A stretch of 33,354 nucleotides of DNA from Flavobacteriales bacterium. GTDB taxonomy: Bacteria; Bacteroidota; Bacteroidia; Flavobacteriales_D; Cryomorphaceae. Shown in pieces: positions 8,932 to 33,118 of this stretch. The position numbers were made by a program, and so were the translations under genes. The first letter of the stretch is position 1. Each line of letters opens with the position of its first letter. Under the pieces are notes generated by a model, which saw only the letters and a list, made by a program, of their open reading frames with translations, was not told the origin of the DNA and made no database searches. The DNA lies in assembly GCA_007125175.1 (NCBI GenBank), contig SLDS01000132.1:1-33354 (forward strand), in the 5' to 3' direction.

Positions 8932-9890
8932 CTCGAATGGCTTAATATACTTGAAACTCCTAAAATACTACATAGCCCATCATCCTCAAACAATGTAAAG
9001 GAAAAATCGGCTTTGGGTACAATTTCTATATGGCTGTCCATATCCGCCGGCACCAATTGGTCTATCAGGTAGTGCATCTGTTTCAGCCGCCTGCCTTGTG
9101 GGGCAAATTCATTGGCCACGCGCATGTCAACCGGCCCAATGGCAAAAGTGATGCAGTAGCGTTCGTCAAGGAAGCTCTGCCCGAGTACTCCTTCAATTCC
9201 GACCTGACTGTTGCCAAGCACGAGTATACTGTCTCGGCCCGGGCGGGTAAACACACGCAGCTCTTTGATCACCTTTACCGGAAGCTTCATGATGAGTGAG
9301 ATGGCCTCCTCTATCCAAGCTAGCCGTGAAGCTATCTCTCTGGCCAGTGGGATCATCCGGGTAATCATTTGTGCTTGCACATCGTCGAATAGGGAGGGGA
9401 TGTTCCAAAAGCGCCGAAGGTGGCCTTTTCCTGAAGCACTTCGGCTGCTCATGCCCATGCTTAGCTCAAAAGCCAGAACATGGGCCTTGATCTTGGTCAA
9501 TTGATCGTCTAGGGGCCAAAAAAACTTGCGGGCGCTGAAGGCAATGTGCTCCTGATACTCATGTTCGGCTTTGAGGTCTTCGATGGACTTGAAGTGCTTG
9601 CTCGATTTCGAACGGTGAAAGAGAAACTCGGGAAACTGATCATAAAGTCCCCGCCGGTGCAGCTCAATGAGGGTGCTCTTGTTCTTGAACTTGTGATGTC
9701 CCGGCAGATGGATTCCAGCAATATCCTTACGAAAAGCCCGTCGAAAGCCACCATTGAGGTAAAAAAGCAGGCCATTCTCCCTGCCTGCAGCACTTATGAT
9801 GTAAAAGAGTACCTCGGCCCTGATGTCCTCACCAAGTCCAATAAATTGCTCGCTCCATGTGCTCGAATTATTCACTTTGCTCGCACACAT
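8928..9890 (-). CDS. tssG: T6SS baseplate protein TssG (subtype iii)
   Basis: LHRRGLYDQFPEFLFHRS resembles the TssG N-terminal motif; directly follows tssF; 4-nt overlap with tssN. Confidence 0.75.
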   Translation of the reverse strand: MCASKVNNSSTWSEQFIGLGEDIRAEVLFYIISAAGRENGLLFYLNGGFRRAFRKDIAGIHLPGHHKFKNKSTLIELHRRGLYDQFPEFLFHRSKSSKHFKSIEDLKAEHEYQEHIAFSARKFFWPLDDQLTKIKAHVLAFELSMGMSSRSASGKGHLRRFWNIPSLFDDVQAQMITRMIPLAREIASRLAWIEEAISLIMKLPVKVIKELRVFTRPGRDSILVLGNSQVGIEGVLGQSFLDERYCITFAIGPVDMRVANEFAPQGRRLKQMHYLIDQLVPADMDSHIEIVPKADFSFTLFEDDGLCSILGVSSILSHSR

Positions 9891-11697
9891 TGAGGGGTAT
9901 AGAAAAATTGGATCGGGCTTGGAGTTCGGATTCCATACGTTGAATCACGTAGTTCTTCTTTTCGGTTTCCAATCCCCCTGTAAAGCGCACCCCAACCCTG
10001 AGCACCTGCATAAGGCCATGCCCCCTTTGGCTGGAAGCTTCTACCTCTTTGCTTACGATGATCTCCTTTACGTCTTCACCACCAATGGCTTTGCAATGGC
10101 TTATGATGTCGGCTTTGGTGACAATCACTTCCTTGGTAAGCAAACTGCTCTTGTAGCGCTCTACCAGCATGGAGTCGCTCAATTCGTCTTCGCCGCCGGT
10201 ACTATCGGTAAGCATTTGCGCTTGTCCAGAAATAGAGATCCCTGCGGTATTGCATTCTACAGCGCTCTCGCGGTTGATGCCATTTGCGAAAGCGGCAAAG
10301 GTAGACCAGAAGTAGATGTACACATTCTCAGACTGCTTATGCGGGCTCAGCAGGATATAGGGTCTATTGTTTCGCAATCCCGAGGATTCAACCCTTTTTT
10401 CCACGCGAGCGATGGCTTGCTCAATCTTTTTCAGGTCACTGGCTGTGCTCGATGCATCAACCGATGCAAAAGCTTGTTTTTCTTCTTTGAGGAGATCCAG
10501 CATGTACCTCAGGTACTCAGAGGCCTCGCGCTCATCGAGCCGACCTACCCCGGCCCGGCGTATGGTGTATGTGCCAGGGTTCTTAACCTCACCGGCTATG
10601 TGCCGGGTTTCGGCATAGGCCCTTCCCTCGGCCGATTCAACCCGCTCAACGTCGAGAAAGGCACCCTCGAAGTCGAGTTTTTTGATGTTCAGGTCGGGCT
10701 GCAGCCTAAACACTTGCCTTTCCATTTTTCGGTTGAGGGCCGGGAAGCAATTGATCTGGACGAAGGCGTCATGAACGAGTTGTTCGGAAGCCTCGTCGGG
10801 AAAGTGCAGGGCCAGCCAAGTGCATTCGCTGTCGGGGTCCAATTCTTCCACCAAGCTACGATAGGCTTCCGGTACGGCATCTCTTGATTGCTCGGCACTG
10901 AGTGATGCCAGTTCGACATTGAGGAAACGATTGCTGTAAAAGTTGACCACGAATTGCTCCATCATCTTCATGGTGCTCAATTGATCCAGAATATTGCTCC
11001 CCACACTCTTTTCGCTTGAAGCAAATCCGTGACTTGAAGCCAGTGGAGAACCATCCAACAGTGTGATGCGGAGTTTTCCCAAAAGATTGAAGAGACTCTT
11101 TTTCTCCACATCCTTGAACCAATCGAAGTAGAATTGAAGCGATGATGTGCGAAGTTTGCTAATCCCCAACACAATGCTGCGCGGGTCGCGCAGAGGTGAA
11201 GGCAAGTCCAGCACTTCTTGTTGAGCGCCTTCGAGGGCCAATACACGCTCAGCATCTATCCTGTACTTGATGCGGGACGGATACATATGCAGGGGTGCTG
11301 CCGAGGTGAAGTGAATGTCTCGACTTTCGAGTCTATTGAATTTTTCCTTGTTGTGCCAGCGTTTTTCGTAGCTGAAATGATCGTAGCAGCTCAATTCCAC
11401 TTTTTCCGTAGGTGTAAAGTGGATCACACCATGCGCCGGCAAGACCGATTGCAGGGCGTTTGGCATAATCTGCCGGGCCATGCGCTTCAGCATGCGGGCT
11501 TCAGCTCCCTTGAGCTCATGGCCTACTTTTTCCAGTTCTTTGGCCAGGGCATTCATGAGCAGCTTGTAGGAGGGATCGAGGCCCGTAAGGTCTGATTCTC
11601 TTACATTCCAGCTCTCTGCTGCTGTTTGCAGCATGCTCTTGTATACACTTGACTGGCTAAAGGGGTTTTTGAGCATGGCTGGTTTATTCTGTGGCAA
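9868..11697 (-). CDS. tssF: T6SS baseplate protein TssF (VI_5 family)
   Basis: 609 aa; LMNALAKELEKVGHELKGAEARMLKRMARQIMPNALQSVLPAHGVIHFTP; position between tssE and tssG. An internal start at 11676 (MLKNPFSQ) is possible. Confidence 0.85.
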   Translation of the reverse strand: MPQNKPAMLKNPFSQSSVYKSMLQTAAESWNVRESDLTGLDPSYKLLMNALAKELEKVGHELKGAEARMLKRMARQIMPNALQSVLPAHGVIHFTPTEKVELSCYDHFSYEKRWHNKEKFNRLESRDIHFTSAAPLHMYPSRIKYRIDAERVLALEGAQQEVLDLPSPLRDPRSIVLGISKLRTSSLQFYFDWFKDVEKKSLFNLLGKLRITLLDGSPLASSHGFASSEKSVGSNILDQLSTMKMMEQFVVNFYSNRFLNVELASLSAEQSRDAVPEAYRSLVEELDPDSECTWLALHFPDEASEQLVHDAFVQINCFPALNRKMERQVFRLQPDLNIKKLDFEGAFLDVERVESAEGRAYAETRHIAGEVKNPGTYTIRRAGVGRLDEREASEYLRYMLDLLKEEKQAFASVDASSTASDLKKIEQAIARVEKRVESSGLRNNRPYILLSPHKQSENVYIYFWSTFAAFANGINRESAVECNTAGISISGQAQMLTDSTGGEDELSDSMLVERYKSSLLTKEVIVTKADIISHCKAIGGEDVKEIIVSKEVEASSQRGHGLMQVLRVGVRFTGGLETEKKNYVIQRMESELQARSNFSIPLNVCEQSE

Positions 11698-12133
11698 AGG
11701 GACTCAGGAATATTTTGTCCTTGAAGTAAAAGGGCTCGTTGGTGCTTGCAATGTGACCGGTCACATGGATGCGCAGGCTCTTCTGTACGCGTACGAGGGA
11801 GCGGCCATCGGACTCGGTACGAAGCTCCTCTTCGGTCACAGTGGCTTTGACATCCACTTTTTGCAAGCGTTTTTCATAGCGCTCAAGCATGGATTTCATC
11901 TGAACAGCCATTTTGTCGATCCAGATTCGGCTTACCTGAGCGTGTTCAAATTCGTGTTCCCATATTTCGCAGCCGAATTCCGGGTCGAAGGCGCATTCTC
12001 CAAAAGAAGTGGTGATGAGCAATCGGATGTGCCATGCGATACTCTCCTCTTGCGAGCAGCGTTCGAAGCGAAGGTTTTTTAAAAAGTAATCGCAGTTAAG
12101 CGGGAGCCGAATGCTCGTTTGCAAGGGATCCAT
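11684..12133 (-). CDS. tssE: T6SS baseplate protein TssE (gp25-like)
   Basis: 149 aa; SIAWHIRLLITTSFGECAFDPEFGCEIWEHEF matches the gp25-like pattern; located between vgrG and tssF. Confidence 0.85.
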   Translation of the reverse strand: MDPLQTSIRLPLNCDYFLKNLRFERCSQEESIAWHIRLLITTSFGECAFDPEFGCEIWEHEFEHAQVSRIWIDKMAVQMKSMLERYEKRLQKVDVKATVTEEELRTESDGRSLVRVQKSLRIHVTGHIASTNEPFYFKDKIFLSPFATE

Positions 12134-12144
12134 TCGCTTTCAGA

Positions 12145-13980
12145 TCAATTGATTTTCACGAGACCACCCTTAATCGTCGCCATGCCGTTGCCGGAGAGCT
12201 CGCTGGTAGCACTTCCTTCTACTTTCACCATCATTCCGCTTAAGCTGGCATTCATCGTGCCTTCAATTTCGGCGTTTTGTCCTCCCTTAGCAGTGAAGTT
12301 GGCAGTGCTCTCGAGCTCCAAGTTTTGTGTGGCCTTGATGGATGTGGCTCCACGTGAACTCATTTGGTTCTTGCCACCGGCATTAATTTTGAAATCCCTG
12401 TCAGTAACCACTTCGAAATTGCCTCCGGCATCGAAGCGTACTTTACCATTGGCAGTAAACTGCATGTCGCCGTCAGTGATGAGTTCGATCTTTCCATTCC
12501 CATCGCATTGCAATTCAAAGGAGTTGCCCTCATTGCGAATGATAAGCTTGCCATTGTCATCAAAAATGATCTGATTGCCGCTGCGTGTTTTGATGGATTT
12601 CAGGCTGTTGTCATCATCGTATACCTCGTCGTACTTGCTGGGCCCGTTGTAAAGAGAACCAATAACATAAGGCTGATCAAGGCACCCATTTTCAAAGCCA
12701 ACGATTACTTCATCCTCAATTTCGGGAAGGAAGTACATGCCCCTGCTATCGCCGGCATGGGTGTTGGCAATCCGTATCCATGGGCTTACGGAGGCATCAC
12801 ACCAGTCAAAGCGCACCCTCACACGCCCGAGTTTTTCCGGGTCGCAATTTTCCATCACCACGCCCACGCAGGAATGAAGTTTTGGCTTTTGAAAGTATAT
12901 GTCCTTGGGAAAAAGGGCTTCTTTCGGAATGGCTTTGAAATGGTTGCTGTAGCTTCGGGCATCCACACAGCTGTGGCTGATGGAAACCACGACGAATTCG
13001 CCTGCATGGTGCATTCCATCAAGCCGAATAATGCTGCCCAGCCTCAATTTTGCACTGTCGCAATCACCTGATACGGTCATTACATTGGCTTGCTGCACCT
13101 TGTTGGCTACGTTGAGTTTATGCGACAGCTGTGTCTTTTCATCTTGCATATTATCACCAGAAGCGAAGGAGCCTTTGTTCACATGACATTGCTCAGACCC
13201 CGTAAACAGATTTTCGGATTGCTCAATGTTATGACTGGCCATAACGTCGCTCGCCTTCACTTTTTCGGGGATTATTTCTTCCATCTTATTCTCCCTGTAG
13301 TCCCGGGCCCAGACTTTTGGACTCGAGGAGCTTAGAGAGTAGTCGTATCGGAGGTTGCGCAGGCGGTCGTGTCCTATATCCAGAGTGGCTGCACCCGGGT
13401 CTTTTCCCAGACATAGGTTTTCACCATCGTAGTAAAACCACTCTCCATACTCGAAGCATAGGCGCTTTATGAAATCAAAATCGCTCTCCTCGTATTGCAC
13501 CGTATAGGGCAGGTCGGATGAATATGTGAGATTGTCATTCACAGCTATTTTTCCCGAAAGGTGCCTATTGAGGCAGGTGCGAAAGATGTCCATAATGGTG
13601 GACTCTTCGTAGCCTTGATTGTGAGGGATGGTATCCATGAGTATGGTGGTGCTGAAGCCTCTCAAATTTACATTTGAATGTTCCCACTTGTTTCCATTCA
13701 CATTCATATCGGTCACGATACCTTTGAAAACCGATGAGTGACGACTGCCATCTGTATCTTCGGGGCTGGCTGTAGCGAGTTCGATTTCGATATCTGCACC
13801 GATTAGCTTTTGCAAGACGGGGATGGGGTCATCGCCTGTATTGACTTTTACCAAAGTGGCCATCGGCAGATTCACTTCAAATTCGTGATGACTGAAGATG
13901 GCCTGCGAGATGTAGATACTGCTCACAGAGCGAAGCTCCGAGCCGCCGATAGTTACCAAAAATCTGAAGTGTTCTGCCAT
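12145..13980 (-). CDS. vgrG: T6SS spike protein VgrG (TssI)
   Basis: gp27/gp5-like layout; VQYEESDFDFIKRLCFEYGEWFYYDG; GRVRVRFDWCDASVSPWIRIANTHAGDSRGMYFLPEIEDEVIVGFENGCLDQPYVIGSLYNG; no C-terminal effector domain. Confidence 0.95.
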   Translation of the reverse strand: MAEHFRFLVTIGGSELRSVSSIYISQAIFSHHEFEVNLPMATLVKVNTGDDPIPVLQKLIGADIEIELATASPEDTDGSRHSSVFKGIVTDMNVNGNKWEHSNVNLRGFSTTILMDTIPHNQGYEESTIMDIFRTCLNRHLSGKIAVNDNLTYSSDLPYTVQYEESDFDFIKRLCFEYGEWFYYDGENLCLGKDPGAATLDIGHDRLRNLRYDYSLSSSSPKVWARDYRENKMEEIIPEKVKASDVMASHNIEQSENLFTGSEQCHVNKGSFASGDNMQDEKTQLSHKLNVANKVQQANVMTVSGDCDSAKLRLGSIIRLDGMHHAGEFVVVSISHSCVDARSYSNHFKAIPKEALFPKDIYFQKPKLHSCVGVVMENCDPEKLGRVRVRFDWCDASVSPWIRIANTHAGDSRGMYFLPEIEDEVIVGFENGCLDQPYVIGSLYNGPSKYDEVYDDDNSLKSIKTRSGNQIIFDDNGKLIIRNEGNSFELQCDGNGKIELITDGDMQFTANGKVRFDAGGNFEVVTDRDFKINAGGKNQMSSRGATSIKATQNLELESTANFTAKGGQNAEIEGTMNASLSGMMVKVEGSATSELSGNGMATIKGGLVKIN

Positions 13981-13998
13981 GATTGCCTGTGTTGTGGA

Positions 13999-15345
13999 TT
14001 ATTCCTGCTCGTAGTCCGCTTTCCAATCTGCTGAATCGGGGTCGTCGCCTTTTTGTCCTTCGAGCTTGAAGACGTAATTCTTCGCAGGGAAGTAAGGGGT
14101 CATGTGAATATCCAGGTTGATTTTGTCTTTTTGATCCTTGTCCTTCTCAAAGCGAAGGATTTTGAATTTCTCGATAAGCTTTCCGGGACCGGTATTGTTA
14201 TCGAGGAATTTCACGATTTGTGAGCGAATCTCGCGCTCTGTCTTGGAGTTGAAGTTCTCGAAAGCACGGCGGTTGAGGAAATCCATCAATACCTTAGAGA
14301 TGTAGTCGAATACGCGCACCACCGAGTAGGTTTGCAAACCGATATTGTCTCCGTTGAAGAGGGTTTTTGCCGAGAAGGCCATCACCTTGCCGTACTCATT
14401 TACCATGGGTACCAATCCCATTTTTTCCAGTTCTGCGAGTTCGCTTTTGCGCAAATCGAAGGCCACACCGTCTACTTCGTTTAGAGCCCCGTGCTTCTTA
14501 CCCGCAGTAACCTGCGACATCAGTGTCTTATAGATTTTTCCCGCAAGGGCCGATGAGGGTGGCACGAGCACGTCCTCCTCTTCGTTGAAGGTTTCGTCTT
14601 TCTTTCTTCCTACCAGCCAGTTGCAGGCCATTACCACATTCGACTTGTACACGTCTCCCCCGGCGAGATTTTCGTGTTGGAAGAGCTCCATCACATCGTC
14701 CGGATTGTCCAGGTGGCGGAAGTCGGTAACGAGTGTAGCTTTATTGCCATGGCACATTTTGGCCCACTTTTCTACTACTTTATTGGAGCCAAGATATCCG
14801 GGCACAGCTACGATACCGTAGTTTTCGCGGAGATCCAGCCTGTCGAAGCAGTCTTTAAGTTCTTCGTGCACTTCATTGATAAACTTTGGGTTGTCCAAAT
14901 CCTGAAGCTGCTCCAAAGAGGCGTTCATGATGTTGACATTCTTCACCTTGTCGCTTTCCGTATTGTTGAAGAAGAGCGCAAGTGATCGGTATGAACGCTC
15001 GAGGTCGGACGTTTGCTTCAGCACATTCGACATGTTTTCGGTGAAAAGGGCATCGTATTGTTGTGCCTTCTCTTCGCAGGAGGAGATGATCTCCGCCACA
15101 TCCTCTGAGCTGGTAAGGATATCGATCCAAAGTTTGAGTTTGCCTTTCAATTCTTTGCGCGCTCCGGCATTGTGGCTTTCGGTGAGGAATATTTGCTTTC
15201 TCGCCTTTCGGTCCGGATTCAGGTTTTGCGTGCCGTCTACGGCCGATTCGATGAGGTCGAATCCACCAAATTTCGCAAGACTATCTACAGCTTCGTCAAT
15301 GTCTTTGTACTTGAGCTGCTCCTGTTGTTGTTGATTTTCAGCCAT
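13999..15345 (-). CDS. tssC: T6SS sheath large subunit TssC
   Basis: 448 aa; YGIVAVPGYLGSNKVVEKWAKMCHGNKATLVTDFRHLD; GDNIGLQTYSVVRVFDYISKVLMDFLNRRAFENF typical of subtype iii TssC; adjacent to tssB. Confidence 0.88.
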   Translation of the reverse strand: MAENQQQQEQLKYKDIDEAVDSLAKFGGFDLIESAVDGTQNLNPDRKARKQIFLTESHNAGARKELKGKLKLWIDILTSSEDVAEIISSCEEKAQQYDALFTENMSNVLKQTSDLERSYRSLALFFNNTESDKVKNVNIMNASLEQLQDLDNPKFINEVHEELKDCFDRLDLRENYGIVAVPGYLGSNKVVEKWAKMCHGNKATLVTDFRHLDNPDDVMELFQHENLAGGDVYKSNVVMACNWLVGRKKDETFNEEEDVLVPPSSALAGKIYKTLMSQVTAGKKHGALNEVDGVAFDLRKSELAELEKMGLVPMVNEYGKVMAFSAKTLFNGDNIGLQTYSVVRVFDYISKVLMDFLNRRAFENFNSKTEREIRSQIVKFLDNNTGPGKLIEKFKILRFEKDKDQKDKINLDIHMTPYFPAKNYVFKLEGQKGDDPDSADWKADYEQE

Positions 15346-15368
15346 GATGATTCAATATTTTTTTGAGT

Positions 15369-15821
15369 TTACTCGCTGTCTTCCAATTCTTTTACAAGCT
15401 GTCGCAAGGAGTCAATAAAGGCCTCCTTCGACTCGGCTTCCTGCAGGGCTGAATTGAGCACCTTATTGGAGCGCAATTGCTTTACAAGGGTGCTCATTTC
15501 GGCTTTCTTCTGTTGCAGTTCCTGCATGAAGTCGCTCTGCTTGGTAATTCCTTTTGGGCCAAAATCACCTACATTGGAAAATTTGAGATTCTCCTTAATC
15601 TCCTGTCCTTCCTCTCCTTTGAGTGTCACATCGGCATTGGGCCTGAAGTGCTCAAAGACGTCATTCACATTGTTGAGTCCCTTTACCACTTGGGGCTTCA
15701 TGGGCTCATCCTGTGTGAGTTTTTGAATAAAGAGGGTCTTGTTCTGCTGGAGATCAGCAAAAGCTTCACTCGCTTCTGTTGGGCGCTCGGTACCACCGAT
15801 GCCGTAATCAAGTTGACTCAT
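15369..15821 (-). CDS. tssB: T6SS sheath small subunit TssB
   Basis: MSQLDYGIGG... start at 15821 rather than 15911; DVTLKGEEGQEIKENLKFSNVGDFGPKGI; adjacent to tssC and clpV. Confidence 0.85.
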   Translation of the reverse strand: MSQLDYGIGGTERPTEASEAFADLQQNKTLFIQKLTQDEPMKPQVVKGLNNVNDVFEHFRPNADVTLKGEEGQEIKENLKFSNVGDFGPKGITKQSDFMQELQQKKAEMSTLVKQLRSNKVLNSALQEAESKEAFIDSLRQLVKELEDSE

Positions 15822-18312
15822 GTGCTTCTTTGTTTTTGGTGATGTTAAATTCGATTTGATTTTCTTCGTTGAGACTGATTTCAAGGCTGTCGCCCCGCTG
15901 CAATTCCTCACTGATGATCATGCGGCTTATCGGCCTGCGAAGTTCGTTGCGGATTACGCCATTGAGAGGGCGTGCTCCATATTTTGGCGTGAAGCCATCC
16001 ATGGCGAGCTTGGTTTTGGCTTCGGGAGCGAATATCACTTCGATGTTCATCTTCTCCAGGGTGCGCAGCAGGTGCTTGAGCTGTATGTCGAAGATGCGCT
16101 CGACTGTATCTTCCGAGATGGGCCTGAAAGGAATGATTTCGGTAAGGCGGGCGAGAAATTCCGGCCTGAAATGGTCGGCCATGATCTCGAGCAGCTCGGA
16201 TGATGGGGGAATGCGGTTGTTGGCAAACTCCTCGATGATGTGGGCACTACCGATATTGGAAGTGAAGAGCACCACCGCATTGGTAAAGTCGCCCTCCTTG
16301 CCCAGCCTATCGTGGAGTTTACCTTCATCGAGTATTTGCAGGAAGAGATCAAAGACGCTGGGGTGCGCTTTTTCGATTTCGTCAAAAAGCACGATCGCAT
16401 AGGGCTGTTGCCGAATTTTATTCACGAGCAATCCACCCTCCTTATAGCCCACGTATCCGGGAGGAGCTCCGTATAGCAGAGCTGCAGAGTGCTCTTCTTT
16501 AAACTCGCTCATGTCAAAGCGGATGAGACTGCGCTCGTCGGCAAAAAGGAAATTGGCGAGGGCTTTGGCCAGCTCGGTTTTTCCTGTTCCGGTGGGCCCC
16601 AAAAAGAAGAATGAACCGATGGGTTGTCCTTGCTTCATGAGCCCCGAACGGGATTCCATGATGGCGTCTGAGATGATCTTAATGGCGTGGTCTTGACCGA
16701 TCACGCGTGATTGCAGGGTTTCTTCCATGTTGAGCAAGCGCTCTTTCTCCTTGCTCTGCACTTTGCCCATGGGGATGCCCGTCTTGTAGGCCACGATGGC
16801 AGCGATATCTTCCTTGCCAATGCTCTCTTTGATCACGGTGGCCTTTTCGTCGAGGGTTTCTATGCCACGGCGTATGTAGTCGAGTATTTCTTCCTTCTCG
16901 GTAAAGCTCGCAGGATCCTCCTCTTCGCTGAGCATGGCTAGCAGAATGGGGCTGATGCGGTTCTCAAATTCGTAAAGGAAGTACTTGATTTCATCCATTT
17001 CGGTCTGGACCTCCTTCTCGAGTTTTTCCAGTTTTTCTCTCAGGGACTTAATGTCGCTGGCAGAGGTATCATTCATCATCTTGATGGCAGCCATGGTGCG
17101 GTCTACCAGATCGATGGCAGCATCCGGCAGGCGGCGGTCTTTGAGGTAGCGTCTGGCCAGCCTTATGGATTCCATGGAGGCATCCTTATCCATGGTGAGA
17201 TTGTGATGTGATTCGTAGAAGGGCACCACCACATCGAGCATTTGGCGGCATACCGGGTCGCTTGGCTCTTCAACGCGCACGGTCTCAAAGCGCCTCATGA
17301 AGGCCTCCTCCGGTTCTAGAAATTCTCGAAACTCATCGTTTGTTGTAGCACCAATGAGGGTGATCTCCCCGCGCGCCAGCTCGGGCTTCAGCAGGTTTAC
17401 CACTCCCGAGAGGCCTCGGTTTTGATCGAGCAGGGCATGTATCTCATCGATGAAGAGGATGGTCTTATCTCCACCTTTTATTCGCGCGATTACTTTTTTG
17501 ATTCTGTCTTCTACCTCGCCTTTGTAGGAGGCTCCGGCCACCAGTGCGCCCAGATCGAGCTCCAGTAGGGTTGAGTTTGCAAGGTGCTGCGGCACATTTT
17601 CTTCCGTGATTGCCAAGGCCAGACCTTCTACGAGTGCTGTCTTTCCCACACCGGGGTCTCCGATCACGATCACATTGGGCTTGGATCGGCGCCCGAGTAT
17701 TTCGGCCACCATTTTCACTTCCCGATCACGGCCTACGATGGGATCGATCTTTCCATCTCGCGCCTTTTGCGTTTTGTCGATACAGTACTGAGCCAGGCTA
17801 TCGTCGTCGCCCTTCTTGCCTTTTTGACCATTGAGTTTTACAGCGGTATCCTTGTCATCGGCACTGGCATCCATATCGCCACCTTCTGTTGTCGACATGA
17901 GGTCATCGCGCTTGAGCGGAAATGAGCGCATTTGCTCAAAGCTGAAAGCAACGCCAGGCGTACACAAGGCAGCTAAGAGGCAGACGGGTGTGATTTCCTC
18001 AAGACCCATTTTGAGGCGCACGAAATCTGCTTCGCGCACCACCGTATTGACCACCTTGTCAGGAAATATTTCAGATGTTGGGGCAGGGCTTTTCGGGTAG
18101 TTTTCAATGCGTACATCGGCCCATTCTCTCATGTATCCTACATCTTTACCCATTTGATCGAGGAGGCCCACAAGGCCGGTCTCTCGGCGTAGGGCAGCGC
18201 GAAGCAAATGCGGGCTGGCATAGCTTGAGTGGCCGTATTCACGGGCGATGTTTTCGCTGAAGGAAAGGATTTCCTTCGCGGGGTCACTTAGTGCTGTTGC
18301 AGTTTGCGCCAT
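15808..18312 (-). CDS. clpV: T6SS sheath-disassembly AAA+ ATPase ClpV (TssH)
   Basis: Two Walker A motifs (GDPGVGKTALVEG, GPTGTGKTELAKA), Clp N-domain; start set at MAQTATALSD (18312); 14-nt overlap with tssB. Confidence 0.92.
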   Translation of the reverse strand: MAQTATALSDPAKEILSFSENIAREYGHSSYASPHLLRAALRRETGLVGLLDQMGKDVGYMREWADVRIENYPKSPAPTSEIFPDKVVNTVVREADFVRLKMGLEEITPVCLLAALCTPGVAFSFEQMRSFPLKRDDLMSTTEGGDMDASADDKDTAVKLNGQKGKKGDDDSLAQYCIDKTQKARDGKIDPIVGRDREVKMVAEILGRRSKPNVIVIGDPGVGKTALVEGLALAITEENVPQHLANSTLLELDLGALVAGASYKGEVEDRIKKVIARIKGGDKTILFIDEIHALLDQNRGLSGVVNLLKPELARGEITLIGATTNDEFREFLEPEEAFMRRFETVRVEEPSDPVCRQMLDVVVPFYESHHNLTMDKDASMESIRLARRYLKDRRLPDAAIDLVDRTMAAIKMMNDTSASDIKSLREKLEKLEKEVQTEMDEIKYFLYEFENRISPILLAMLSEEEDPASFTEKEEILDYIRRGIETLDEKATVIKESIGKEDIAAIVAYKTGIPMGKVQSKEKERLLNMEETLQSRVIGQDHAIKIISDAIMESRSGLMKQGQPIGSFFFLGPTGTGKTELAKALANFLFADERSLIRFDMSEFKEEHSAALLYGAPPGYVGYKEGGLLVNKIRQQPYAIVLFDEIEKAHPSVFDLFLQILDEGKLHDRLGKEGDFTNAVVLFTSNIGSAHIIEEFANNRIPPSSELLEIMADHFRPEFLARLTEIIPFRPISEDTVERIFDIQLKHLLRTLEKMNIEVIFAPEAKTKLAMDGFTPKYGARPLNGVIRNELRRPISRMIISEELQRGDSLEISLNEENQIEFNITKNKEAHEST

Positions 18313-18351
18313 ATGGCTTGGGTTATTGAAGATTTTAATTGGTTTGACAAG

Positions 18352-18379
18352 GTGCAAATATTTATTTGTCTGTGCAAAT
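18352..18379. promoter_or_regulatory. Candidate LytTR-type operator: direct repeat GTGCAAAT-N12-GTGCAAAT upstream of clpV
   Basis: Exact 8-bp direct repeat at 18352-18359 and 18372-18379; 20-bp centre-to-centre spacing; sits between the LytTR gene and clpV. Confidence 0.4.
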
Positions 18380-23139: not shown

Positions 23140-23146
23140 GCTATCC

Positions 23147-24026: not shown

Positions 24027-24545
24027 ATGAAGCCAGTCAATTCCCGGGAACGACGCAAGGCATTTATGTCTTTTCTGTTCATGTTTATTCTCGCTATTGT
24101 TCCTATTTGCATTTCCATTTACCTTTTCGGTAGGGTAGACCATGCGGAGAATGATTTTCTGCGGGAAAAATACAGGCAGAGCCAACAGCTGCAGGAGGTG
24201 AAGTACAGCGAGGCCAGGGTGTACAGCTCCCTCAATGATGAAGTGATTGCCGTACAAAACCAAATCACCCAATCGCAGGACGTGGCAACAGCACGACCCG
24301 AAAGTGGAAATATCGAATCCCGCATCAATGCACTCAACAGAAGCCTGAGAGAGCTTCAAGGCGAGCTCAGTGGTGTAAAGCTCAACTCCACAGAAGCACT
24401 TATGCTCGAAATGATTCGTTCGCAAGCTGAGAGCCTGGAGAAAATGAACTCCATATACCGAGACACCTACGCCAGGCTTAGGGATGAGCGCGATGAGGTC
24501 GCCAAGCTCAAGAGAAGATTGGAAGCAAGTGGGATAATGCATTAA
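24027..24545 (+). CDS. tssO: T6SS subtype iii protein TssO
   Basis: 172 aa; MKPVNSRERRKAFMSFLFMFILAIVPICISIYLFG single N-terminal TM then coiled-coil; directly upstream of a tssP-like gene. Confidence 0.8.
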   Translation: MKPVNSRERRKAFMSFLFMFILAIVPICISIYLFGRVDHAENDFLREKYRQSQQLQEVKYSEARVYSSLNDEVIAVQNQITQSQDVATARPESGNIESRINALNRSLRELQGELSGVKLNSTEALMLEMIRSQAESLEKMNSIYRDTYARLRDERDEVAKLKRRLEASGIMH

Positions 24546-24567
24546 ACAGTAGCCTTTAATTTTTGGC

Positions 24568-25695
24568 ATGGACAAGCTCACTTATATACCGCCTTTGATC
24601 ATTGCCTTTCTCGGGCTCATCTTGCTGGCTTTGAATATCAAGCCCGCATTTGAAGGGGAAATGGACTTTCGCACAGAAAAGGCCGAAGCGATCACACGTG
24701 TGCCCAATGCCCCTGATAGCATACAGGTGGGTACCGCCGCTGACCTCTTACTGCGGGTGCCGGATGGCGAGCTTTTCGACGGTGATATCTTCTGGTTGAT
24801 CAGCGGTCCACGCGATACAGTGGGCTACCACAGCCGCAAGCCCGGAGTGCGGTTCAACCAACTTGGCAATTACACCCTTTCAGCCTACCACAGGCAGCGC
24901 GAGCTGATAAGCCATGATGTGATCGTGGTAGAAGGCCGGGAAGTGCGCATGCACGTTGGGAGTGCTGAGCTCAAGGCAGGTGAGGAGTTTAAAGCTTCCG
25001 ACCGCAGCAATTTTAGCTCCGCTTCACGCAAATGGCAGGTGAGAGACAGCCGCGACCGACTCCTTGTCGAGCAAGAAGATGTAGAAGACTTCGCATGGAA
25101 GGCTCCTTCCGCCGGCGAATTTGTGGTCGCTTTGATATACCTCGATGATCAGGGAGAAGAGGTAGGCCGCAAAAACATGCCAATAGAAGTGGCCCCGCCC
25201 CCGGCGCCTGTGCGCAGGGCTGCACCAAAAGCCACTGCCCCCAAGCCGAAAACCCCAAAAGTGTCCGTGCTCTCGGTAGCAGCATCGGCGCTGCCATTCA
25301 ATTACAGAGGCCAGGATGTGGATCCGGACAAGGACTACAAGTCAAAGCAAGTGTACAAGGCCGATTTTGTGGCCAAACAAGATCTGCAGCTCAATCATAT
25401 CATCGCCTACCTGAAGGCAGGGGAGTACGAAATTCGGGTAAGTAGAAATGGAGAGGAAGTTTTTCGCGACAATGTTCGCTTGAACTCCGATAGGGCATGG
25501 GAATTTGGCTTTTCGAGGCTGGGACGCATTGAGCGTGATGATCAGCTCCAAATAAGCCTTCACACAGCCGAAGGCAAGGTGTTCACACGTCGCCCAAAAG
25601 CCAGTGATGTTTCCAACCCATACTTCTCCATCGAATTTGAAGGAGCCGAGCAGTGGATGTTTAATGCCGACCTCAATGTGAGTGGAAATGAATGA
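24568..25695 (+). CDS. tssP: T6SS subtype iii protein TssP
   Basis: 375 aa; N-terminal TM (YIPPLIIAFLGLILLALNI), beta-rich domain, proline-rich linker (APPPAPVRRAAPKATAPKPKTPK), second beta-rich domain; next to tssO. Confidence 0.75.
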   Translation: MDKLTYIPPLIIAFLGLILLALNIKPAFEGEMDFRTEKAEAITRVPNAPDSIQVGTAADLLLRVPDGELFDGDIFWLISGPRDTVGYHSRKPGVRFNQLGNYTLSAYHRQRELISHDVIVVEGREVRMHVGSAELKAGEEFKASDRSNFSSASRKWQVRDSRDRLLVEQEDVEDFAWKAPSAGEFVVALIYLDDQGEEVGRKNMPIEVAPPPAPVRRAAPKATAPKPKTPKVSVLSVAASALPFNYRGQDVDPDKDYKSKQVYKADFVAKQDLQLNHIIAYLKAGEYEIRVSRNGEEVFRDNVRLNSDRAWEFGFSRLGRIERDDQLQISLHTAEGKVFTRRPKASDVSNPYFSIEFEGAEQWMFNADLNVSGNE

Positions 25696-25794: not shown

Positions 25795-28245
25795 ATGAAC
25801 GCAGCTCGCTACATTTTGATCGCTTTGATATGGATTGCTACGCTTGCAGCCGGATCGGTGAGCGCCTTAGCCCCTACAAATACCGGCATGGATGGTTTGC
25901 CACCTGATGTGGTGCCTCCGGGAAATCAGGAAGTGTGTGAGGGCGAAGAGGTGACCTTGGAGGTGCAAGCGAATCCCAATGGTGCCGTTATAGAATGGTA
26001 CACGGTCGATGGGCAAGATACGCTGACCTATGTCGACGGCGTCGCCTTCACGCCCCATACCACTGGCCTGATTACATATACACTTGTTGCTTCGGATGGT
26101 ATAGTCTCTGATACGAGTACAGTGGAAGTAAACGTGGTGGAGCTACACACGATAAGCTCTGCTGCCGATCGCACCCTTTGCATCAATTCGACCATGACAC
26201 CCATCGAGATAGTTTTCGGTGGTGGAGCTACCAATGCCACCGTTCAAGGTTTGCTGCCGGGGGGGATAAGTTCCGCTGTCTCGAATGAAACCCTCACCAT
26301 TTCGGGAACAGCCACCACTGCAGGCACCTTCAACTATACCGCCCAAACTGTGGCCAATGCCTGCCCCTCGGTACAGACAAGCGGAACCATCACCGTACTT
26401 CCGGAAAACACCTTTGACCTGAGCTCTGCCCCCGAAAGCCTCGATCAGGAGATTTGTGAGGGAGACTCCATCGATCCCATCACCTTCGAGACAAGCGGAG
26501 CAGGTGGAGTCAATTTCAACAATTTGCCGCAAGGCTTGAGCGCCATATGGGATGATGACCTGGGCAGTATTACCGGATTTCCTACCGATACTGGGGTCTT
26601 CTCCTTCGAGATTGAACTCACAGGCGGGTGCGGAGATGTGTCTCAGGGTGTGGAACTCTCGGTGCGTCCAAGACCAGTGGTAGACGCCGGGCCCGATCAG
26701 CTCTTGTGTGACGATGATCCCGTGGTGGAGCTGGAGGGAACAGTAATCAATGCCCCCAATCACATCTGGAGCTCCCCGGACGATGAGGGGGCTTTTCAAA
26801 ATGTTTCTCAGCTCGCGACGCTCTTTGAGCCCAGTGAAGATCAGCTGGACTCAGGGTCTGTGGTGCTCACACTTACCGCTCAGGGCGGCGCGGCAGTGTG
26901 CGGAATCGTTTCCGACAGCCTCACGCTTACTTTCACCGAGGCGTTCAGTGCCTTTTTCGAATACGATGATCCATTTTGCAGCAATCAGGATGAGCTGGTA
27001 AGCCCGGAACTTTTTGGCACCGAAGGTGGAGTATACGGTGGAGACATACCCGGTATCGATCCACAGGACGGGAGCTTCAATCCCTCCGATCTGCAGTCGG
27101 GAGAGTATGACGTGACTTATACCGTGCCGGAAGGAGGTGGCTGCGCCCAGTTTGATACCACCCTGAGCATCACCATCAACCACCCCCTGAGTGAGGTCCA
27201 AATCTTGGGCAATGATTCTGAATTTTATTGCAATCAGGAGGATTTGATTCTCACGGGAACAGCTCAAAATGCACTTTCTTTTCAATGGGAGATAGAAGAA
27301 GGAGGAGGGGATTATATACCTCTGCCCGACACGACCATTGCTTACACACCTCAAGATTATGCAGGTGAAGTTCTTGTTTCGTTTTCCGCTTCTGCCCTTC
27401 CGGGTTGTTTTGAGATTGTCACTGTATTTACCGATTTCGTTATGGTGCCCCCGCATGGAGGGGAGATTCAAGAGGTGATCCCGGAAGTATGCGAAGGCGA
27501 TTTGCTCACATTTGCAGCAGAGGAAACGGAGTTTGATCAATATTATACCTATGAATGGAACTTGCAGGATGAGAACGGGAATCCCACAGGCAGCGCTACA
27601 GGCCCGGAAGATGAGGCTGAAGTGACTTATCAGCTGGGATCTTTTGAGGAGGAAAGCAGCTTGGAAGTCTCTCTCTCTACCATGGTGGATGGCTCTTGCC
27701 TTTCGCAGGGCAGTGAAAACTTTGAGGTGTTTCTGGAGCCCGATATCTGCGATTATTTCGAATTGGCCGGGAATATTTTGGTGATCAATGCCTGTGAAGA
27801 AGGAGAGATAGACCATTTCTATCAATGGGGCTGCGGATCAAATAGCCTTGAAGATGAGACGGACATTTACCTCCATTACGGGCCTTATCTCGATGAATGC
27901 GAAGACTTTTGGGTGAGTGTGTCACTTTATGAAGACGGTCGGTGTCCTGTGTATGAGGGAAGCAATTTCCCAGTATCAGCCAGCGCCTCTCCGGAGTGGC
28001 AGATGCAGGTGTATCCCAACCCCGCAAGCCGCGAATTATTTCTCGAGCTTCCAGCCGCCGCGCTGAGCCCTGCCATGACTTATGAGCTTTACTCTCAGAG
28101 TGGAGTGCGAATAAGTCAAGGGAATCTGCAGGGCATGGCCTCCAGGCAGACCATAGACATCGGCAAGCATGCTGCGGGCTATTACATCCTGCAGGTGCGC
28201 AGCGGGGAGCATATTTTTCGACATTCAATAGCCATTATAAGATGA
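25795..28245 (+). CDS. Secreted PKD/Ig-like repeat protein with T9SS type A C-terminal sorting domain
   Basis: Signal peptide; Ig/PKD-like repeats (GNQEVCEGEEVTLEVQANPNGAVIEWYTV..., RPVVDAGPDQLLCDDDPVVELEGT...); C-terminal VYPNPASRELFLELPAA...AAGYYILQVRSGEHIFRHSIAIIR. Confidence 0.85.
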   Translation: MNAARYILIALIWIATLAAGSVSALAPTNTGMDGLPPDVVPPGNQEVCEGEEVTLEVQANPNGAVIEWYTVDGQDTLTYVDGVAFTPHTTGLITYTLVASDGIVSDTSTVEVNVVELHTISSAADRTLCINSTMTPIEIVFGGGATNATVQGLLPGGISSAVSNETLTISGTATTAGTFNYTAQTVANACPSVQTSGTITVLPENTFDLSSAPESLDQEICEGDSIDPITFETSGAGGVNFNNLPQGLSAIWDDDLGSITGFPTDTGVFSFEIELTGGCGDVSQGVELSVRPRPVVDAGPDQLLCDDDPVVELEGTVINAPNHIWSSPDDEGAFQNVSQLATLFEPSEDQLDSGSVVLTLTAQGGAAVCGIVSDSLTLTFTEAFSAFFEYDDPFCSNQDELVSPELFGTEGGVYGGDIPGIDPQDGSFNPSDLQSGEYDVTYTVPEGGGCAQFDTTLSITINHPLSEVQILGNDSEFYCNQEDLILTGTAQNALSFQWEIEEGGGDYIPLPDTTIAYTPQDYAGEVLVSFSASALPGCFEIVTVFTDFVMVPPHGGEIQEVIPEVCEGDLLTFAAEETEFDQYYTYEWNLQDENGNPTGSATGPEDEAEVTYQLGSFEEESSLEVSLSTMVDGSCLSQGSENFEVFLEPDICDYFELAGNILVINACEEGEIDHFYQWGCGSNSLEDETDIYLHYGPYLDECEDFWVSVSLYEDGRCPVYEGSNFPVSASASPEWQMQVYPNPASRELFLELPAAALSPAMTYELYSQSGVRISQGNLQGMASRQTIDIGKHAAGYYILQVRSGEHIFRHSIAIIR

Positions 28246-29777
28246 GATGGAAATACATATACGGGTGTTTTTCGCTCCTGGGAGCTGCTTTGATGCTGGC
28301 GAGCACCCCGACCCTCGCACAGGGAGAAGATGATGCAGCGCTGAGCGCGGAAGATTCCACAGCACTGTCACTGGCTTTGTCGGTGGCAGATGCCTACGTG
28401 GATCACCTGGATCGCTATTTCAACCGTGGAGAGGCCATGAGCGACGAGCTCCGCGAAGGTTTCATGGTGCTTTTCACGGGCAGCCAAAAGATCATTTCCG
28501 ATTACTCCGCTCAAACCCGGCGCATTGAGCCCGCTGAATACCTCTTTGAGGCCGGTCAGATTTTTGCCGATGAGCGCCCGGCCCTCCAAGCCCAAATAGA
28601 CAGAGAGGGCGCTGTGGTCAAGCATTTTCCCAATGACCGCTTTCACCTCGCTGCCATTCCTTTGGACACGCGCTTCAGTCGATACTTTGATCTGTCAACA
28701 GGGGCTGTGGTCAACGATACCATCGAGAAGTTTCTCACCCTCGAGGTGCGCATTACCGGAATCGAAAATGCCCGCATAGATCGAAGTGTGGAACGGGCGC
28801 CCGTACTTTACTATGCTGAACAACGCGCACTCCTCGCCCAGGCCGAGCAAGAACGCGATAAAAGGAGAAAGGAGGAAAACGAAAAAAAGTCCGACGCGCC
28901 CAGGGAGCGCCGTGCGAAACCAGAACGGATGAAGGCAGATATGCATTCATATATTTTTGCCGGTTTTGTCCTGGGCGGGGACTTGTCTTCCAACCAGCTC
29001 GAATCGCAGAGTGAGCTGTATTCCTTCTCAAACCACAGCTTTCAGATGAATGAGACCAGCATCCAATACTTCATGCCCCTGCACCGCAGTGGTCTCTACC
29101 TGCATACCGGTTTTGGCATCTCCGTTGGAAGGCTCGACCTGGAATACAACAATGCATCTTTCAGCTTTGAGCAAGTGGATAACCTGAATCCCAGCAGTGA
29201 TGTCCAATTTGCAGAAGCGGGAATTGTAAATAGTTACCAGCGCACCGCCATCTTGGAGGATATCAGCGAACGAATTGATTTTACGGACATAAACTTTCGT
29301 CTGGGCCTGGGCATAGATCTGCTCAGTGATTCCAGAGAATTGTTCATGTTCAGTGCTGGCATGATGCTTGGAGTGACCAATGCCCAAAAATCTGATGTCA
29401 TGCTTACAGCCAACTACCACGGCCATTTCAGCGAGGTCAATGGATTGCCGATTGACCTGACCCTTGGTGTGAACGAAGACTTGCCGGAGTATGGATTTGA
29501 CGAGCGGCGTTCGCTCATGGATTTTGTGATTGACAGAAGGCTTATTTACAGCGCTTATGCTCAAGTGGCTTTCGCCAAACACATCGGTGATAAAGTCTAT
29601 GTGGGTATACAGCTCGAAGGCCGCCTGCCCATGAATCAATGGCTAGAGGGAGGTGCAGATCACGAATTGCTCTTTGGCAATCACGGAGACTTGGACAGCA
29701 GCCTGGCAGACTTGGTGAGCGACATCCGTCGGCCCTATTTTCTGGGGGGGGGAGTTCTCCTGGGGATGAAATTTTAA
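28242..29777 (+). CDS. Outer-membrane beta-barrel protein with N-terminal periplasmic domain, within the T6SSiii plus-strand block
   Basis: Signal peptide (MRWKYIYGCFSLLGAALMLASTPTLAQ); alpha/beta N-domain; charged linker (AEQERDKRRKEENEKKSDAPRERRAKPERM); amphipathic strands, terminal Phe (YFLGGGVLLGMKF); ATGA overlap with the upstream gene. Confidence 0.7.
   Translation: MRWKYIYGCFSLLGAALMLASTPTLAQGEDDAALSAEDSTALSLALSVADAYVDHLDRYFNRGEAMSDELREGFMVLFTGSQKIISDYSAQTRRIEPAEYLFEAGQIFADERPALQAQIDREGAVVKHFPNDRFHLAAIPLDTRFSRYFDLSTGAVVNDTIEKFLTLEVRITGIENARIDRSVERAPVLYYAEQRALLAQAEQERDKRRKEENEKKSDAPRERRAKPERMKADMHSYIFAGFVLGGDLSSNQLESQSELYSFSNHSFQMNETSIQYFMPLHRSGLYLHTGFGISVGRLDLEYNNASFSFEQVDNLNPSSDVQFAEAGIVNSYQRTAILEDISERIDFTDINFRLGLGIDLLSDSRELFMFSAGMMLGVTNAQKSDVMLTANYHGHFSEVNGLPIDLTLGVNEDLPEYGFDERRSLMDFVIDRRLIYSAYAQVAFAKHIGDKVYVGIQLEGRLPMNQWLEGGADHELLFGNHGDLDSSLADLVSDIRRPYFLGGGVLLGMKF
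29744..29752. repeat. Homopolymeric G9 tract within the beta-barrel gene
   Basis: tttctGGGGGGGGGagttctcc, near the 3' end of the 28242-29777 ORF. Confidence 0.8.
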
Positions 29778-29789: not shown

Positions 29790-32378
29790 ATGTGTATCAA
29801 GCAATTTTGCACACTTATGATCGCTTTGCTTCTTTGGCCCCTTGCGGCAAATGAAGTGCATGCGCAACGCGGCGGCAGCGAACATCTGCCGGCAAAACCG
29901 GACAATCTCCGGGATAGAATTCGCTTTGATGATGAGGGTTCGAAAGACTATACCAACCTTACAAATCCATACAAAGCGGGCAGTACTTTTGGCATAAGCC
30001 AGAGGGGCAAGAAGCGTTCGAGTGATTATTGGAGGGTGTTCAGCGACCGCGATGAGAATGTGCTCTACCAAGACCCCGGGTTGAACCAGGCGGGCAGCAT
30101 CACAGCCAGCATCGGGCAGAAGCTCTATGTACTCGATGAGAACCCGAATGCCCTCAAAGTGCTGGCGCTGAAATCAGATCCTTATACCGATGGATCTTAC
30201 GATCACGGCAGCGTGCTCGGCGAGGGCTGGATCGCCAAAGAAAACCTTCTGCTCTGGGAGAAGCCGCTTATCTCCGAAAATTCCAGCTTCGAAATGAAGG
30301 CCTTCCTGATGAATCTCAACGATCAGGATTTGCTTGCCGAATTTGCCCGAAAGGGAAAAGACAAAGACCTTGTAGAACTCTACCACGCCCCGGATGCCGG
30401 CGAAGCTGTGAGCAAGAAGCAGCTTTACGAAGTGCTCTTCGTGTTCAAGTACGACAGTGAATCCCGCCGCTACCTCGTGGCCAATGATGCCATCATAGGA
30501 GGCTATGGCTATGAGCTCTTCTGGGTGAGCGAATCGCGCATCAAGGTGTGGAATACGCGTCTGGCACTGGAGTGGAATTTTGACTCGGAGGCCTGCGAAG
30601 AGCGCAGGGAAGGGCGCAGTGCAACTGTTTTTTCCATGCCACAGCGTGCAATCGATTATGCGGCAGGGCAGTTTGATCCCGATTTTGGAGGAGAAAACAA
30701 ATTCCTCGACGCCAAAGACCCTTGCTCGGATCGCCGACTCAAGGCAGCAGAGGTGTTCGACCCTAAGAGCAGCCGATATGTAGGCTCAGTGATTCGCTAT
30801 CCCTTCTTTGAGAGCCGCCCCGGATACTACGTCTGTGGAGCCCTCACCCGCTTCGACCCCAAGAGCATGATCGCCCTCGACAATTGGGAGGCCACCGAAT
30901 CTGAAATCGACAATAAGCTCGAAAAAGGATCCCGGGTGAACATCATGCTCGCCATCAACGGCACTTTCACTTCGCGGAAAAATGCAGAATACTACGCCGA
31001 CCTGGTCGATCAGGTGCGCAATTCCTTTGATAGAGATACCATCTTCAAGGGAAAGACAAGGGTGGGAGTGACCTTCTTCTACGACCTCAAGCGCGGCACC
31101 CCGCCGCTCACCATCGGCCCCTATGCCGACAGGGCAGGGCTGGAAGAAGTGAAAAATGCCATTGCGGATCCGCAAAGCTACCGCTCTGAGCCGCAGATAC
31201 CCCTGCTGTACAATGGCCTCAATGAAGCCCTTGAGCGGGGAGCGCAAGAAGGAGAAACCAATGTGCTCTTATTGTTGGGCGGCAGCAGCGACGTCTTTCA
31301 CAGAATGGTGCCGGTGGCCAATGCAGAAAAAAATCCCCTCTACGTGAGCGAACGTGAACTGCGCGATAAGATCCGCAAATACAATGCACACGTGATGGCC
31401 TTGCAAGTGGATGTGGAAGATGAGTACGCGATGTTTTACAGCGAATTCCGAAATCATTTTCGCACGCGGGTATTGGGAAATATCGTCAAGAAAGTGGACG
31501 AAGAGTACACCCGTGTAGCCGAATTTGCCGATGCCAAAAACCTGAGCTACCCGCAGTGGAGGTCTCGCGACGATTTGGGTGTAAGCAATGTGCGTATGGA
31601 CTATGTGGAGGACTTTCACCTTGAGTACGCGGTGCTCAGCGCCATCGATACCCGAGGTGATTTTTCATTGCCCACCAAGTCCATCAACACCTTGGTGACC
31701 GATTTTACCGATCGCATAGCCACCAAGGAGCGGAATATGCTCATCAACCTCAACAAGGTGGTGCGCGACCACTCCCAGTGGAAAAGCTTTATCGGCAGTG
31801 CGGGACAAGAGGTTGTGAAATCGCACTTGCTTCAAGGCTTCTCGGATGAACAGCTCAAGCAGCTCTTTTTGGAAAAGGTGCAATTGCTCTACACCGGCTA
31901 TACGCCAAAAATCATCGAAGGGCAGGAGCATGCCCTCTACCAGCAGGTGCTCTTCATGTCGCGACAAGATTTGCAGGAAATGCGGGAAAACATTCAGCGC
32001 ATCAAGCGTGAGGCACTCGATGCCCGAAGGCAACGCAAGGGAGTGGTAGAGGCATGGTACAGCTACGGGGCTGCCATTCTCAAAGAAGATGTTGCATCCC
32101 TGCAGAAAAACTATCCTGTGGAGCGCAGCAAGGATCTTCAGAGGCTATTGCTGAGCGGCGTGCCCGAGCTTACCGAGCACAGTAGTATGTTCTCCAGGTA
32201 TTCGGCGGTGGAAATACTCACCGAAGGAGGCAAAGTGCAGGGGGAAGACATCGACAAGTACCTCGGGAGTCTCGATGCCAAAGAGCGGCGCATCAGTGAG
32301 CTGCTGCAGAGTGCCAAACTGGAATACCGCACCGGGAGTTACACCTTCTTCTGGGTGCCAATAGAATACCTGCCATGA
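29790..32378 (+). CDS. tssR: T6SS subtype iii protein TssR
   Basis: 862 aa; signal peptide; RVNIMLAINGTFTSRKNAEYYADLVDQVRNSF... and NVLLLLGGSSDVFHRMVPVANAEKNPLYVSERELRDKIRKYNAHVMALQVDVED, vWA-like pattern; co-directional with tssO and tssP. Confidence 0.78.
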   Translation: MCIKQFCTLMIALLLWPLAANEVHAQRGGSEHLPAKPDNLRDRIRFDDEGSKDYTNLTNPYKAGSTFGISQRGKKRSSDYWRVFSDRDENVLYQDPGLNQAGSITASIGQKLYVLDENPNALKVLALKSDPYTDGSYDHGSVLGEGWIAKENLLLWEKPLISENSSFEMKAFLMNLNDQDLLAEFARKGKDKDLVELYHAPDAGEAVSKKQLYEVLFVFKYDSESRRYLVANDAIIGGYGYELFWVSESRIKVWNTRLALEWNFDSEACEERREGRSATVFSMPQRAIDYAAGQFDPDFGGENKFLDAKDPCSDRRLKAAEVFDPKSSRYVGSVIRYPFFESRPGYYVCGALTRFDPKSMIALDNWEATESEIDNKLEKGSRVNIMLAINGTFTSRKNAEYYADLVDQVRNSFDRDTIFKGKTRVGVTFFYDLKRGTPPLTIGPYADRAGLEEVKNAIADPQSYRSEPQIPLLYNGLNEALERGAQEGETNVLLLLGGSSDVFHRMVPVANAEKNPLYVSERELRDKIRKYNAHVMALQVDVEDEYAMFYSEFRNHFRTRVLGNIVKKVDEEYTRVAEFADAKNLSYPQWRSRDDLGVSNVRMDYVEDFHLEYAVLSAIDTRGDFSLPTKSINTLVTDFTDRIATKERNMLINLNKVVRDHSQWKSFIGSAGQEVVKSHLLQGFSDEQLKQLFLEKVQLLYTGYTPKIIEGQEHALYQQVLFMSRQDLQEMRENIQRIKREALDARRQRKGVVEAWYSYGAAILKEDVASLQKNYPVERSKDLQRLLLSGVPELTEHSSMFSRYSAVEILTEGGKVQGEDIDKYLGSLDAKERRISELLQSAKLEYRTGSYTFFWVPIEYLP

Positions 32379-33118
32379 GCCAAGCCTCCATACTCTTCGA
32401 GTTAAGCAATCTCTCGTGCCGGTATGGAGATCAGGAAGTCTTGCGCGTGGAGGAACTGAGCCTGCCTGCGGTGCCGCTCACTTTCATACTCGGTAGCTCG
32501 GGCATTGGCAAGAGCACCTTACTCGAGATGTTGGGGCTTATGTCCAATACCTACAGGGGTCGGGCCGATCGCTTCACATATCAGGGAGCCCAAGATTTGC
32601 GCGGCTTTTGGGACTGGCCTCAGAGTAAGCAAGCACATTTTCGGCGCAGCAATTTCAGCTTTGTCTTTCAGCAAACCAACCTCATCGAAAATTTCAGCAT
32701 CCTTGAGAATCTTTGCATACCCCTCATGATACAGGGATATGCCTATGAGGATGCCGCCAATAAGGTGACGGCTACTGCCGAAAAAATGAACCTCGATGCC
32801 CAGCTACTTTTGCGAAAAGCTACAGCGGTATCGGGAGGACAGCTACAGCGGGCTGCCTTTACGCGGGCGCTTTCCACCGATTTCAAAGTCCTCTTTGGCG
32901 ATGAGCCCACCGGAAACCTTGATAGCGGTAATAGCCGCACCCTCATGGGCTTGCTTAAGGACAACCTCGTGGAGCGCGGTGCCTCGGCCGTTGTGGTCTC
33001 GCACGACGTGGCCCTTGCCGAAGAATACGCCGACTGCATCATCCGCGTGAAGCGCATGGGCGATGAGGATAGGGCCTATGGACTCATTGATCAAAACTGC
33101 TTAAGTATATCGCAATGA
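32375..33118 (+). CDS. ABC transporter ATP-binding protein, LolD/MacB-like
   Basis: Walker A GSSGIGKST, signature VSGGQLQRAAFTRAL, Walker B VLFGDEPTGNLDS, H-loop VVSHD; ATGA overlap with tssR. Confidence 0.93.
   Translation: MSQASILFELSNLSCRYGDQEVLRVEELSLPAVPLTFILGSSGIGKSTLLEMLGLMSNTYRGRADRFTYQGAQDLRGFWDWPQSKQAHFRRSNFSFVFQQTNLIENFSILENLCIPLMIQGYAYEDAANKVTATAEKMNLDAQLLLRKATAVSGGQLQRAAFTRALSTDFKVLFGDEPTGNLDSGNSRTLMGLLKDNLVERGASAVVVSHDVALAEEYADCIIRVKRMGDEDRAYGLIDQNCLSISQ

Follow-up and report, generated by a model that had tools for sequence, protein, structure and literature searches.

The window (the whole stretch analyzed here, 33,354 nucleotides) is one entire contig of a Flavobacteriales draft genome comprising 257 contigs. 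Directly upstream of tssR it encodes a predicted outer-membrane β-barrel protein of a family found next to TssR in many Bacteroidota, some of them lacking a T6SS. This protein is probably not a T6SS-only part but the outer-membrane terminus of TssR-based machinery shared with the T6SS. Sequence comparison and structure prediction define its predicted fold, its family, and its linkage to one clade of TssR (clade B), to a T9SS-sorted protein and, in most cases, to an ABC transporter of type VII (LolD/MacB/FtsX-like). The initial annotation had put forward an outer-membrane anchor for T6SSiii; the barrel, the periplasmic domain and the recurrent linkage to tssR hold up, but the dedication to T6SSiii does not, because the module of barrel, TssR and ABC transporter also occurs in genomes without a T6SS and because T6SSiii loci with the other TssR clade (clade A) have no barrel nearby.

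Genes in the window were called mechanically (Table 1), and those around the barrel gene are ordered tssO, transmembrane (TM) protein, T9SS-sorted protein, barrel, tssR, ABC ATPase and permease. In the sequence ATGA (28242-28245), the T9SS gene stops and the barrel gene starts on overlapping codons, 12 bases separate the end of the barrel gene from tssR, and tssR, the ATPase gene and the permease gene overlap in turn; because of these overlaps and this short gap, we argue that the genes form one operon. With tssO upstream and tssR downstream of it on one strand, and the T6SSiii core on the same contig, the barrel is encoded together with T6SSiii membrane-complex genes. The same is true in genome G960, whose T6SSiii cluster comprises tssG, tssN, tssK, tssO, a second tssO-like gene, a T9SS protein, the barrel, TssP, a 207-aa gene, TssR and PAAR, with no ABC genes adjoining tssR.

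Table 1. Features of the window discussed in the text.
Feature	Coordinates	Strand	Basis
T6SSiii core: 388-aa gene, TssK, TssN, TssG, TssF, TssE, VgrG, TssC, TssB, TssH	5593..18357	-	Pfam
tssO	24027..24545	+	PF17561 E 3.6e-6, 28.3 bits, just below cut-off 29.2
375-aa protein: single N-terminal TM segment, then periplasmic part	24568..25695	+	position and topology only (TssP candidate)
T9SS-sorted surface protein with Ig-like domain	25795..28245	+	PF18962 1.9e-7, PF19081 6.2e-9
Barrel protein (predicted): NTF2-like ~35-184, linker ~188-232, barrel 237-510	28242..29777	+	AF2, Foldseek, family profile
tssR, clade B, signal peptide without lipobox	29790..32378	+	PF17643 E 3.7e-11, PF20780 6.4e-7, tree
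ABC ATPase, LolD/MacB/FtsE-like	32375..33118	+	PF00005 5.1e-20; overlaps tssR by 4 bases
Start of FtsX-type permease, gene cut by contig end	33115..33354	+	overlaps ATPase by 4 bases

Several of these assignments call for comment. Neither profile search nor HHalign supported TssP for the 375-aa gene. The best NCBIfam matches of the ATPase (L_ocin_972_ABC, LolD and FtsE) all score under cut-off, and the permease assignment draws on the gene at the same position in a locus from the same genus (L036, 3479-5026), which matches FtsX (PF02687, 4.3e-5) just under cut-off. The tssO gene lies opposite a 191-aa ORF (24006-24581, minus strand) favored by a longest-ORF caller. Elsewhere on the minus strand, the 388-aa gene that follows tssK (5593-6759) had no family match, and a T6SS cargo region (19392-23743) encodes DUF4123, DUF2931, a Tle1-like phospholipase domain and PAAR proteins.

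The barrel gene has an ATG start and encodes 511 aa. The N-terminus of the product, MRWKYIYGCFSLLGAALMLASTPTLAQ, is a signal peptide in which inspection found no lipobox cysteine, so the protein is not classed as a lipoprotein; charged residues make up 53% of aa 188-232, and the C-terminal end is GMKF, with a final Phe. The ORF had no match in Pfam (E 0.1) or NCBIfam, and among solved structures neither it nor TssR had a relative that a sequence search could identify. An AF2 model built from 17 aligned sequences is of moderate overall confidence (mean pLDDT 70.6, pTM 0.46), with a confident periplasmic domain (aa ~35-184, pLDDT about 85-95), a helical linker (aa 190-216, within a charged helical linker of ~188-232 overall) and eight strands across aa 237-510. 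Foldseek matched the periplasmic domain to NTF2-like folds (Mtr2, the CaMKII association domain and ketosteroid isomerase; probability about 1.0, TMt 0.5-0.58) and the strand part to OmpA (1bxw, probability 0.99) and OmpX (1qj9, 0.97). E-values were above 0.001 throughout and TM-scores about 0.5, and these matches therefore support the window model at the level of fold only. For a Portibacter relative, the AF2 model (pLDDT 78.6) has eight strands and the same order of elements, and Foldseek matched OmpA at E 1.6e-6; the best 50 matches listed were all barrels, so the NTF2-like assignment draws on the window model. The protein is thus predicted to be an OmpA-type barrel, with signal peptide, eight strands and a C-terminal aromatic residue, and its periplasmic domain appears to have the cone-shaped alpha+beta fold of NTF2-like proteins, at a TMt of only 0.5-0.58. 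We rejected a porin or secretion channel, as eight strands leave no useful pore; a barrel of this predicted size would fit a plug or anchor and not a conduit. The initial annotation had correctly given the coordinates, strand and length of the ORF, its T9SS and tssR neighbors (here confirmed with Pfam), the signal peptide without lipobox and the highly charged linker, and the structure prediction that it proposed as a check returned the periplasmic domain and the barrel ending in Phe.

Comparison among tssR loci indicates that the protein belongs to a conserved, unnamed family, beyond what chance would produce. Because HHalign could not match individual barrels pairwise across distant loci, we pooled the barrels found upstream of other tssR genes; profiles of subsets found one another. 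A family profile made from 16 other tssR-linked proteins, with the window protein excluded, scored the window protein at 40.8 bits (E 4.4e-12 in a small locus database), and the best of 1,000 shuffled controls reached 5.5 bits. Positions F74, F78, I179 and E343 are near-invariant. The family recurs beside tssR, and neither refuting outcome named by the initial annotation (a predicted structure lacking a barrel, or absence from other tssR-linked loci combined with a lack of any predicted or measured interaction) came about. Copies of the N-terminal domain also stand alone, without a barrel (L148 8662-9285, L149 8092-8715, L095 14037-14582 and L064 6898-7464), some adjoining a barrel gene and others in a separate locus beside a large TPR-like gene.

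A TssR tree of 36 loci, read without a root, falls into two clades split by a 100/100 branch. Clade A has the classical layout, with TssO, TssQ and TssP upstream of TssR and T6SS genes usually downstream, and no member of the barrel family was found near tssR at any of its 17 loci (0/17); the barrel is not general to T6SSiii loci. In clade B, to which the window belongs, every one of the 17 loci with sufficient upstream flank has a family member ahead of tssR, at a distance of one or three genes; L032 is counted here, although its TssR, truncated at a contig end, is not part of the tree. Where the spacing is three genes, TssP (or a gene in the TssP position) and a ~200-aa secreted protein lie between barrel and tssR. 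Downstream of clade-B tssR are an ABC ATPase and an FtsX-type permease, fused in some loci; the exceptions are L092, with a PAAR gene in that place, and L032, where the contig ends. The arrangement is repeated in G001, a genome of the same genus as the window, where the last 40 aa of a barrel, 58% identical, directly precede tssR. Contig edges leave only the last 40 residues of the barrel in L036 and cut L093, for which a family member lies at the edge of another contig of the same genome. A locus from another class (L055, G337) with tssR and ABC genes carries upstream a barrel-like protein (10137-11465) that falls outside the family; its C-terminal half looks OmpA-type by eye without Pfam support, OMP_b-brl matching at E 0.03 only.

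The co-occurrence extends to whole genomes: within a sample of 395 genomes from the class, all eight with a clade-B TssR hold a family member (that of G914 cut by a contig end), and only two further genomes do (hypergeometric p about 3e-15, a value that ignores shared ancestry and takes two samples as the same draw). Most clade-B loci also encode, upstream of the barrel, a protein with a T9SS C-terminal signal; its gene immediately precedes the barrel gene, or is separated from it by one small gene, in the window and in L092, L040, L053, L060, L064, L094, L095, L096, L032, L035 and L145. In L062 and L063, the gene immediately before the barrel does not encode a T9SS protein. In these two Saprospiraceae-type loci (2965-8462 and 3240-8413, respectively) a Ser/Thr kinase is encoded upstream of the barrel, and by eye we recognized a PP2C phosphatase and a MotA/MotB-like pair among the upstream genes, a hint of control by phosphorylation and of ion-driven energy. 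L145 (8787-11105) belongs to G910, a T6SS-less relative of G960 with the same flanks, in which the T9SS protein, the barrel and the ~200-aa gene remain and neither tssR nor T6SS genes were found; since G910 keeps both without these genes, the barrel's stronger dependence may be on the T9SS protein.

Searches for TssC, TssN and TssK agree that a T6SS is present in G000, G001, G091, G183, G895, G960 and G994, and found none of the three in G185, G187, G337, G360, G454, G744 and G914; searches for TssN, TssK and TssO found none in G910, G946 and the genomes of L060, L062, L063 and L064. TssO agreed with the other markers except in G091, where it was missed, and in G744, where a match was weak and below threshold. 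TssF (PF05947) was dropped as a marker; it was insensitive and missed TssC-bearing genomes. G187, G337, G360, G454, G744 and G914 are 95-100% complete, and the incomplete G185, G256 and G294 were not relied upon. The module is not restricted to T6SS-bearing genomes: it occurs in genomes in which TssC, TssN, TssK and TssO were all undetectable, among them two from Portibacter with a completeness rating of 100%. G744, which has a full-length TssP and no T6SS, and the T6SS-bearing G994 belong to one genus, are sisters in the tree and carry the same module. In the T6SS-bearing G000, G895, G960 and G994, a search with the TssR alignment found clade-B TssR as the only TssR, and the same search detects clade-A TssR in other genomes.

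These results bear on the published T6SSiii membrane complex. The initial annotation took passage of T6SSiii through the envelope to be poorly understood, a premise overtaken in 2024, when TssNQOPR was shown to be the membrane complex (PMC10781749). It also expected a TssQ lipoprotein at the position of the barrel, and TssQ is instead a single-TM inner-membrane protein with an elongated helical periplasmic domain (PMC10781749); we rejected the barrel protein, with its NTF2-like domain and barrel, as TssQ on fold. TssR is a possible outer-membrane lipoprotein in T6SSiii, and in Bacteroides fragilis it is a lipoprotein and essential for the T6SS (PMC10781749). That study, which searched complete genomes with sequence profiles, reported no membrane-complex homologues outside T6SS loci and called the origin of the complex hard to trace, as no T6SSiii-independent locus encodes the gene set (PMC10781749). 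The module in T6SS-less genomes contradicts the claim that such genes do not occur outside T6SS loci, a discrepancy that may arise because that search covered complete genomes and used profiles, and clade-B proteins are divergent.

The window shares with B. fragilis TssNQOPR homologues of TssR, TssO and TssN and a TssR-centered periplasmic assembly, but in B. fragilis TssR is lipidated and the complex contains no barrel, T9SS protein or ABC transporter, whereas TssR in the window lacks a lipobox and its module also exists without a T6SS. In TssJLM of T6SSi, too, an outer-membrane-attached part anchors a trans-envelope complex, but TssJ is a small lipoprotein without a barrel and we saw no homology. 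The predicted barrel fold resembles that of OmpA and OmpX without a family-level sequence match, and the NTF2-like domain precedes the barrel, whereas the peptidoglycan-binding domain of OmpA follows it. The ATPase, FtsX-type permease and periplasmic partner recall type-VII ABC systems (FtsEX-EnvC, LolCDE and MacAB-TolC), although in this case TssR and a small, closed barrel would be the partners.

A different role would make the barrel the outer-membrane partner, in attachment or folding, of the T9SS protein encoded before it, with TssR and the ABC transporter helping that surface protein and not the T6SS, comparable to PorP/SprF-type partners, whose genes likewise adjoin that of a T9SS-sorted protein. 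The T9SS signal upstream in the window and 11 named loci, the stop/start overlap in the window, the retention of both genes in G910 without tssR and the occurrence of the module without a T6SS all speak for it. We nevertheless find it less likely: the immediate upstream neighbor is not a T9SS protein in L062 and L063, and T9SS proteins differ between loci in size and domain content, whereas TssR stays constant. The neighboring C-terminal domain (CTD) is of type A (PF18962), and type-A CTD proteins are not known to require a dedicated barrel. PorP/SprF itself was rejected, as the protein matched no Pfam family at E 0.1 and has the extra NTF2-like domain.

It seems improbable that the module belongs to the T6SS and that loci lacking a T6SS are what remained once its core genes had been lost. 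TssR and TssP are otherwise T6SS genes, and G910 does resemble a remnant, given its flanks in common with G960; however, decay would be expected, and intact full-length TssR, barrel and ABC genes are retained in T6SS-less genomes from several families, among them a six-member Saprospiraceae/Portibacter clade, with TssP also kept in G744. It seems equally improbable that the barrel is an accessory of an ABC exporter cassette for lipoproteins or peptides. The ATPase is closest to LolD and bacteriocin-export subfamilies and the FtsX permease is adjacent, yet the NCBIfam scores are all far under cut-off, tssR in G960 has no neighboring ABC genes and an eight-stranded barrel gives no exit duct.

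We favor, at about an even chance, a barrel that serves as outer-membrane anchor or adaptor of the TssR complex, used by T6SSiii and not dedicated to it; an outer-membrane role beside TssR is in itself plausible. The eight-stranded barrel would hold the NTF2-like domain in the periplasm, where the domain may dock TssR, and the barrel may replace the lipid that tethers TssR in Bacteroides. No convincing lipobox was found in clade-B TssRs (the sole match, in L094, precedes the likely start), but this is not specific support for barrel anchoring, as ~10 clade-A TssRs likewise have neither a lipobox nor a barrel nearby; a strict rule of exchange between lipobox and barrel was rejected, many clade-A TssRs lacking both. 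Type-VII ABC systems are described in a review (PMC5985334) as acting on periplasmic partners by mechanotransmission; by analogy this is the likeliest job of the ABC pair, which would act from the inner membrane on the TssR complex. In T6SS-bearing clade-B lineages, the module would be the outer half of the T6SSiii membrane complex, joined to TssO and TssN inside, and T6SSiii probably uses it, because a search of four such genomes found no TssR other than that of clade B and because the T6SS of B. fragilis cannot function without TssR. Where there is no T6SS, the module would act alone, probably serving the T9SS-secreted surface protein.

More tentatively, and at somewhat less than an even chance, we suggest that a T6SS-independent trans-envelope system consisting of a T9SS surface protein, an NTF2-barrel anchor, TssR (in some cases with TssP) and a type-VII ABC transporter is the source or sister of T6SSiii membrane-complex parts, and that lineages like that of the window still operate their T6SS by way of it. 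Genomes that have no T6SS but do encode full-length TssR, joined in G744 by TssP, offer a handle on the origin of the T6SSiii membrane complex, and the barrel family suggests, in a form open to testing, how TssR could reach the outer membrane when it carries no lipid anchor. Isolate genomes exist for Portibacter, which would serve as a T6SS-free model.
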